Translations under genes and position numbers: made by a program
Part shown: positions 4,077 through 5,563 of the stretch, in pieces
Position numbering within the stretch: position 1 is the first letter of the stretch
Layout: each line of letters opens with the position of its first letter
DNA from: Actinomycetota bacterium
Lineage (GTDB): Bacteria > Actinomycetota > CADDZG01 > WHSQ01
Direction of reading: 5' to 3'
Assembly: GCA_030446465.1 (NCBI GenBank)
Contig: JAUJNI010000001.1
Coordinates: 819,240-870,507, forward strand
Length of the DNA: 51,268 nt
Notes under the pieces: generated by a model
Database searches by the model: none
What the model was told of the DNA's origin: nothing
What the model saw: the letters and a program-made list of their open reading frames with translations, nothing else

Positions 4077-4134
4077 CGGTCGTGGTCGCCTTCGATCTGA
4101 ACGACCCCCGCGATAATCAAGCCAGGAGCGGGCC

Positions 4135-4183
4135 GTTCTTTCTGAGAAAAACCACACGAGGGGTGGGAATCCTCAGAAAGAAC
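4135..4183 (+). promoter_or_regulatory. long perfect inverted repeat in the leader of the selenoprotein gene
   Basis: GTTCTTTCTGAG (4135-4146) is perfectly complementary to CTCAGAAAGAAC (4172-4183), giving a 12-bp stem with a 25-nt loop. The loop contains a smaller CCAC/GTGG pairing. It starts 58 bases after the DUF2891 stop and ends 25 bases before the next ATG. The 3' arm is followed by purine-rich sequence, not a T run, so it is not a classical intrinsic terminator. It could be a leader structure, a protein-binding palindrome or a processing site. Confidence 0.6.
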
Positions 4184-4208
4184 GAAAGACGCAGTCGAAG
4201 GGAGTTTC

Positions 4209-4760
4209 ATGGCTTGGATCCACGTCATCTCCGAGGAAGCGGCGGGGCCGGAGCTCATGCCCCTCTACAAAGAGATCGTCGACCCCGTGAGTGGGCGCGT
4301 GGACAACATCCTCGCTATTCACTCTCTGCATCCTGAGGGCCTGGACGGCCACTTTTCCCTGTACAAGGCCGTGATGACTGGGACGCCGACACTCCGCAAG
4401 GCCGAGCGCGAGATGATCGCCCTCGTCGTCAGCAAGATCAACGGTTGTCATTACTGAGTGACCCACCACAGGCGCGGTCTGCGCCGCTTGCTCAAAGACG
4501 ACGACCTGGTGGCCCGCATCGAGACCGACTACCGAAGCGCCGGCTTGGACGACCGCCGCTTGGCGATGCTGTCGTATGCAGAGAAGCTCACGAAGTCGCC
4601 GAGCGCCGTGGATAAGGACGATGTCGCCACGCTCAAGAATGCGGGTTTCGGAGATGCCGATGTCTTGGCGATCGCGGAGGTCACCGCCTACTACGCGTAT
4701 GTCAACCGCATCGCCGACGGCCTCGGCGTAGAGGTCGAGCCATGGTTCACGCCCGATTGA
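4209..4760 (+). CDS. AhpD-like (carboxymuconolactone decarboxylase family) probable selenoprotein with in-frame TGA
   Basis: The frame 4209-4760 is interrupted only by TGA at 4455-4457 and encodes 183 residues if read through, with residue 83 as selenocysteine. It matches the peroxidase-related AhpD-like family on both sides of the TGA: AEREMIALVVSKINGCHY, then the TGA, then VTHHRRGLRRLL and later MLSYAEKLTKSPS and VNRIADGLGVEVEPW. In Cys homologues the redox motif reads NGCHYCVxHH, so the TGA sits exactly at the second Cys of CxxC, giving CxxU. AhpD-like selenoproteins are an established prokaryotic family. A GGGAG site lies 6 bases before the ATG. A SECIS-like hairpin follows the TGA. An ordinary nonsense mutation is less likely, because the downstream frame is intact and conserved. 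The selA, selB, selC and selD genes are not in this window. Confidence 0.85.
4455..4494 (+). promoter_or_regulatory. SECIS-like element directing UGA recoding
   Basis: Just 3' of the TGA, GGCGC (4471-4475) and GCGCC (4481-4485) form a 5-bp stem around the loop GGTCT (4476-4480). A lower pairing of TGAG (4455-4458) with CTCA (4491-4494) closes the element. Exactly 18 nt separate the TGA from the loop. From memory, the E. coli fdhF SECIS recognised by SelB has the same GGUCU loop and the same 18-nt spacing. The stem encodes RRGLRR, where Cys homologues usually have a GEAL-type sequence, as expected if RNA structure constrains the protein. Confidence 0.75.
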
Positions 4761-4795
4761 GCCCGCGGCCCCAAAGGCGGCAAGGCCTTGCAGGC

Positions 4796-5563
4796 GTGAA
4801 GGGTGATCCTTATCTCGAGCTGGCTGATGACTTCGTTCGTCATTACGAGACGCTGAGAGGCGTGGTGCGTCACGCTCTCGTGGCGCGCCAGCTGCGTGAG
4901 CACATGCCAGAGCCTCCCGCCGACATTGTCGACGTGGGCGGAGGCGCCGGGCATCAGTCGATCCCTCTGGCCTCGGAGGGCTACCGAGTGGTCATCCTCG
5001 ATCAGTCCGCCGAGATGCTTCGTCGAGCCGAAGAGGAGCTTGCTCGGCACACCCCCGAGATAAGAAGCAGAGTTAGACTGGTCGAGGGGGCCGGCGAGCA
5101 TGCGCCCACAGTCTTGGGTCGACAGAAGTTCGAGGTTGTTCTCTGTCACGGGGTGCTCATGTATCTCGAGGAGCCAGGGCCCATGCTGGCGGCAATGGCA
5201 GGTGTGGCCAGGCCCGGAGCAATATTGTCCGTGCTTGCCAAGAACGCCGCGGCCCTCGCCTTGCGTCCCGCGCTGAGGGGGCGCTTCGATGACGCCGTTG
5301 CTTCTTTCGACACGGACCGGGATGTGGGCGGGCTTGGCGTCGTCACTCGTGGCGACACCGTCGAAAGTCTCGCCGAGATACTCGAGGGACTGTCCGTCGA
5401 CCTGGTGGATTGGTACGGCGTGCGCGTGCTGACCGATCACCGTTTCGACGAGCGACCGGGTCCGGATCTCGCAGCCGTTCTCGCAGCGGAGTGGGAGGCG
5501 AGTCGCCGTGATCCCTACCGCTCGGTCGGTCGCCTGATACACGTCATCGGCCGGATGAGATAA
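4796..5563 (+). CDS. class I SAM-dependent methyltransferase
   Basis: A protein of 255 residues. Motif I is ADIVDVGGGAGHQSIPLA, followed by the acidic loop VVILDQSAEML, a motif-IV region FEVVLCHGVLMYLEEPG and the post-motif GAILSVLAKNAAALAL. The Asp ending the second strand fits SAM ribose binding. Overall it resembles the SmtA/CmoM-type group, but the substrate cannot be told. I chose the GTG at 4796 (VKGDPYLELADDF); an ATG at 4742 would overlap the selenoprotein gene. The gap to that gene is 35 bases, so co-transcription is plausible. Confidence 0.8.
   Translation: MKGDPYLELADDFVRHYETLRGVVRHALVARQLREHMPEPPADIVDVGGGAGHQSIPLASEGYRVVILDQSAEMLRRAEEELARHTPEIRSRVRLVEGAGEHAPTVLGRQKFEVVLCHGVLMYLEEPGPMLAAMAGVARPGAILSVLAKNAAALALRPALRGRFDDAVASFDTDRDVGGLGVVTRGDTVESLAEILEGLSVDLVDWYGVRVLTDHRFDERPGPDLAAVLAAEWEASRRDPYRSVGRLIHVIGRMR

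Follow-up and report, generated by a model that had tools for sequence, protein, structure and literature searches.

An AhpD-like gene of an uncultured actinobacterial lineage with an in-frame TGA at the second position of its CxxC motif, predicted to encode a selenoprotein

We analysed a window of 51,268 nucleotides (the whole stretch of DNA under study) from the genome of an Actinomycetota bacterium. Its forward strand carries, at positions 4209-4760, a gene of the AhpD-like, peroxidase-related family (TIGR01926 / COG2128) whose frame runs from an ATG at 4209 to a TGA at 4758-4760. The sole internal stop is a TGA at 4455-4457, which falls at residue 83; the frame contains no frameshifts and no further stops. 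With this codon read through, the coding part without the final stop (4209-4757, +) specifies 183 residues. A sequence-only reading of this DNA had claimed that TGA alone breaks the frame, that similarity to the family is continuous on both sides, and that the codon stands where homologues have their second redox Cys, and each of these claims was borne out. The TIGR01926 profile matched residues 3-178 of the read-through protein, covering both halves, with 141.4 bits (cut-off 81.8), and the match to PF02627 (Pfam CMD), at residues 50-124, spans the TGA. The surrounding residues are C80-H-Y-TGA-V-T-H-H87, compared with C-x-x-C in homologues. The TGA (U83 if read as selenocysteine) therefore lies at the second position of the redox motif, and the first, partner cysteine, C80, is encoded by the TGT at 4446-4448 (+), as placed by sequence and alignment. 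The presence of an in-frame TGA at the second Cys of CxxC in an AhpD-like gene is confirmed.

Two further features flank this gene. A SAM-dependent methyltransferase gene lies at 4742-5563 (+), and if it begins at its earliest possible start it shares 19 nt with the end of the AhpD-like gene. Just upstream of the AhpD-like gene, the window contains a perfect 13-bp inverted repeat (CGTTCTTTCTGAG / CTCAGAAAGAACG, 4134-4184) with arms 25 nt apart, and the stretch around it folds strongly (z = -3.9). Arms of 12 bp at the same spacing were found at one other intergenic site of the genome (C1:22764-22812, L075), a single arm was found at another locus (L007), and a promoter and terminator scan gave no match. 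The repeat has the look of a dispersed palindromic element, or else of a regulator site, and is not specific to the selenoprotein gene.

The residues flanking the TGA resemble the active site of characterized AhpD-like enzymes. In PA0269, an AhpD-like protein, a proton relay is formed by Glu36, Cys48, Tyr50, Cys51 and His55 (PMC3141380). The window protein has the CxxC/CxxU motif together with a conserved flanking Glu and His, and the spacing of E68, C80, Y82, U83 and H87 is exactly that of the five PA0269 residues. By this spacing, E68 (codon 4410-4412, +; U minus 15) would be the proton-relay Glu and H87 (codon 4467-4469, +; U plus 4) the proton-relay His. An alignment of 26 sequences showed E68, U/C83 and H87 to be invariant in the family. 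Because the relay spacing is shared with PA0269 and these three positions are invariant, selenocysteine (Sec) would replace the second catalytic Cys.

Downstream of the TGA lies a putative bacterial SECIS upper hairpin, GGCGC-GGUCU-GCGCC, at 4471-4485 (+). A 13-nt spacer (4458-4470) is followed by GGCGC (4471-4475), the loop GGTCT (4476-4480) and GCGCC (4481-4485), so the geometry proposed from the sequence, 13 nt to the stem and 18 nt to the loop, is exact. That reading had also pointed to a GGUCU loop at the same spacing in fdhF, and a query of TGA, 18 nt and GGTCT indeed matched the annotated fdhF gene of E. coli. A published bSECIS model requires a loop of 3-9 nt with G in its first two positions, a stem of 4 bp or more and a distance of 16-37 nt from the UGA (PMC13188914); the window hairpin, with its 5-bp stem, GGUCU loop and 18-nt distance, agrees with this model. 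An Rfam scan of the region returned no match to a SECIS-type family, only a chance-level sRNA match.

The geometry thus stood, but the weight of the hairpin on its own did not. When we redrew the 20 codons after the TGA synonymously in 20,000 trials, 48% of the resamplings placed a stem of 5 or more pairs where a SECIS would lie, and in neighbouring genes 41% of ordinary codons are followed by such a stem. We therefore rejected the hairpin as stand-alone evidence. It gains support because the 15-mer GGCGCGGTCTGCGCC is kept letter for letter, silent sites included, in four relatives (L031, L042, L043 and L044) whose proteins are 52-70% identical to the window protein. All five close sequences (window included) share the consecutive codons CGC GGT CTG CGC without a difference, compared with 3/35 comparable conserved four- or six-fold degenerate positions elsewhere (Fisher p = 4e-4). 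The stem is invariant among these five sequences and so offers no base-pair covariation in its favour; more distant Sec relatives have different, sometimes weaker, hairpins. Conservation of the TGA position and of the 15-mer across genomes is beyond chance.

Homologues were collected by genome searches at the level of order, class and phylum. Aligned with the read-through protein, Cys homologues matched over its full length, and those lacking TGA have TGC or TGT at the U83 codon. In 13 other genomes a TGA lies exactly at this codon (L031, L042, L043, L044, L046, L047, L048, L010, L049 (= L032), L011 (= L054), L060, L066 and L012), a count that excludes six further genomes also listed with a TGA in the match. 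Each of the 14 TGA-bearing sequences whose position was checked has its TGA at alignment offset 0 and no other TGA in the matched stretch. Close relatives from other families of the phylum keep both the TGA and an identical hairpin, among them an Acidimicrobiales MAG, the source of L031. A tree of 26 proteins implied at least two changes between Sec and Cys forms, the details being unsure owing to some long branches. One TGA-bearing relative (L010, genome G013) has the motif C-H-C-U, with an extra Cys beside the Sec. Three of the genomes that hold close relatives also have a second, more distant AhpD-like copy with a TGA in the match (G217, C244; G185, C5; G076, C8).

selA was found in all 13 searched genomes with a position-checked TGA, the host genome included (in G178 as a fragment below the cut-off), and a tRNA-Sec in 11 of the 13, the two genomes without one being 83-84% complete. 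Several Cys-only genomes (G277, G097, G146, G297 and others) yielded neither selA nor tRNA-Sec.

Searches of the host genome itself (2.76 Mb in 6 contigs, 96% complete) recovered all four of selA (519.3 bits), selB (328.7 bits), selC and selD (388.3 bits); the tRNA-Sec scored 83 bits and was called by ARAGORN as tRNA-SeC with anticodon tca. selB, a gene that by eye resembles fdhD, and selA are neighbours. The host selenoproteome was sampled family by family. The host selD has a TGA of its own near the N-terminus (SYSHGGG-U-ACKL; L026 around 1531, C4:510091), in the region in which known SelD selenoproteins carry Sec, and is itself a predicted selenoprotein gene. An in-frame TGA is also present in the gene for a formate dehydrogenase alpha subunit (QARI-U-HSSTVPGL; L070, C6:630602-631243). 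The genome further contains a Cys paralogue of the AhpD-like family with the motif CLYC (L016, C2:77103-77483). It also contains WhiB genes, which among the named control genomes occur in the actinobacterium alone and which assign the genome to Actinomycetota; a kinship tally with an Acidimicrobiales relative gives the same placement.

We weighed three other explanations of the TGA. Cys homologues have TGC or TGT at this codon, one base away from TGA, as would be expected if the gene were a pseudogene or the TGA a sequencing error. However, the identical codon occurs in independent assemblies from other genera and families; its recurrence in the 13 other genomes practically refutes this explanation, and no second lesion disturbs the frame. 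Between the window and its relatives, the part downstream of the TGA has a dN of 0.21-0.37 and a dS of 0.79-1.24, and therefore the downstream protein is under selection; dN before the TGA is 0.32-0.56, and the downstream dN is not higher. With purifying selection continuing past the TGA, we regard a point mutation or error as very improbable. Mechanical ORF calling does return two ORFs, 4209-4457 (82 aa) and 4458-4760 (100 aa, from a GTG at 4458), just as the sequence-only reading expected of automated annotation, and these are exactly the products that two separate genes would have. Yet the split would fall inside the catalytic motif, and Cys homologues are single proteins. Nor is a start codon conserved directly after the TGA: of the five close sequences two have GTG there, and the other three have ATC, ATC and ACG. 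A pair of genes is accordingly even less probable than an error.

Decoding of the TGA as some other residue, through reassignment (e.g. TGA = Trp) or near-cognate read-through with no SECIS, could in principle occur, and the hairpin by itself lacks significance. Against this stand the complete Sec pathway of the genome, the use of TGA as the ordinary stop of both the selenoprotein gene and the gene upstream, the occurrence of Cys rather than Trp at the U83 place in homologues, and the conserved silent sites of the hairpin. We give this explanation the same very slight chance as that of two genes.

Selenocysteine decoding, as inferred in the sequence-only reading, is supported and remains the preferred explanation, and we put at about 0.96 the probability that the gene encodes an AhpD-like thiol-dependent oxidoreductase whose UGA is decoded as Sec through SelB and tRNA-Sec under direction of the hairpin. 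In the proposed mechanism, the downstream hairpin would direct decoding of the UGA at 4455-4457 by the SelB/tRNA-Sec pathway, and at the AhpD C-x-x-C site the selenol of U83 would stand in for the second catalytic cysteine. E68 and H87 probably activate this selenol, which would then likely attack a hydroperoxide or disulfide substrate, with C80 serving as the putative resolving thiol. The analysis shows the anatomy of the sequence, the presence of the machinery in the genome and the conservation of TGA and hairpin in evolution; from these we infer Sec incorporation itself and the peroxidase-type chemistry, as well as substrate and reductant.

The overlapping methyltransferase gene (4742-5563) is a possible operon partner of the selenoprotein gene. 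In one TGA-bearing relative from the same family (L011 1501-2700, genome G005), the first Cys is replaced by Ala (A-H-Y-U), and the protein forms a single-frame fusion with a SAM methyltransferase domain. By ORF inspection, no methyltransferase was seen directly downstream in the other Sec relatives inspected (L031, L042-L044, L046-L049, L010, L060 and L066), a check limited by the shortness of most loci, and we did not adopt it as a conserved partner. The two genes might instead be paired as a selenol-plus-methyltransferase module rather than encoding a peroxide-detoxifying enzyme; in the L011 fusion, where the partner cysteine is lost (A-x-x-U), the chemistry would then fall to one selenol. 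We consider such a module unlikely, although less so than any of the three explanations of the TGA weighed above.

The gene is a further member of the AhpD-like CxxU selenoproteins, here in an uncultured actinobacterial lineage. For this lineage, the analysis documents the Sec pathway together with no fewer than three predicted selenoproteins (the AhpD-like protein, SelD and formate dehydrogenase). It also sets right a gene that would be cut in two by automatic annotation. The general picture is unchanged because AhpD-like CxxU selenoproteins were already described in 2005.

Several known systems share parts of this arrangement. Structures have been solved for Cys proteins of the peroxidase-related TIGR01926 type (PDB 2pfx, 3c1l, 2oyo and 2prr), which are homologous over most of the chain and carry Cys where the window protein would have Sec; the CxxC of 2pfx aligns with C80-x-x-U83. 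AhpD of Mycobacterium tuberculosis and PA0269 of Pseudomonas aeruginosa have the same five-residue relay spacing (E, C, H or Y, C, H; PMC3141380), but are Cys enzymes of different subfamilies and helix order. NF041238, the AhpD-related CFYUT (seleno)protein family, likewise combines an AhpD domain with CxxU; membership of the window protein was ruled out by its score of 48.4 bits against a cut-off of 175. The SECIS of E. coli fdhF has in common the GGUCU loop 18 nt past the UGA, and differs in gene and lower stem. The closest system is the AhpD-like CxxU family itself (COG2128 / TIGR01926); the sequence-only reading had rightly stated that AhpD-like selenoproteins exist. The family is catalogued with 27 CxxU sequences of COG2128 in the 2005 Sargasso Sea survey (PMC1088965), as AhpD-like 1 (COG2128), among the commonest marine selenoproteins with 299 sequences, in the 2008 GOS survey (PMC2398784), and as TIGR01926, CxxU, in a 2026 review (PMC13188914). 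The window gene shares with it the family, the Sec position at the second residue of CxxC and a bacterial SECIS just downstream; only the lineage, an uncultured actinobacterium, differs, and the window hairpin has the fdhF-type GGUCU loop.
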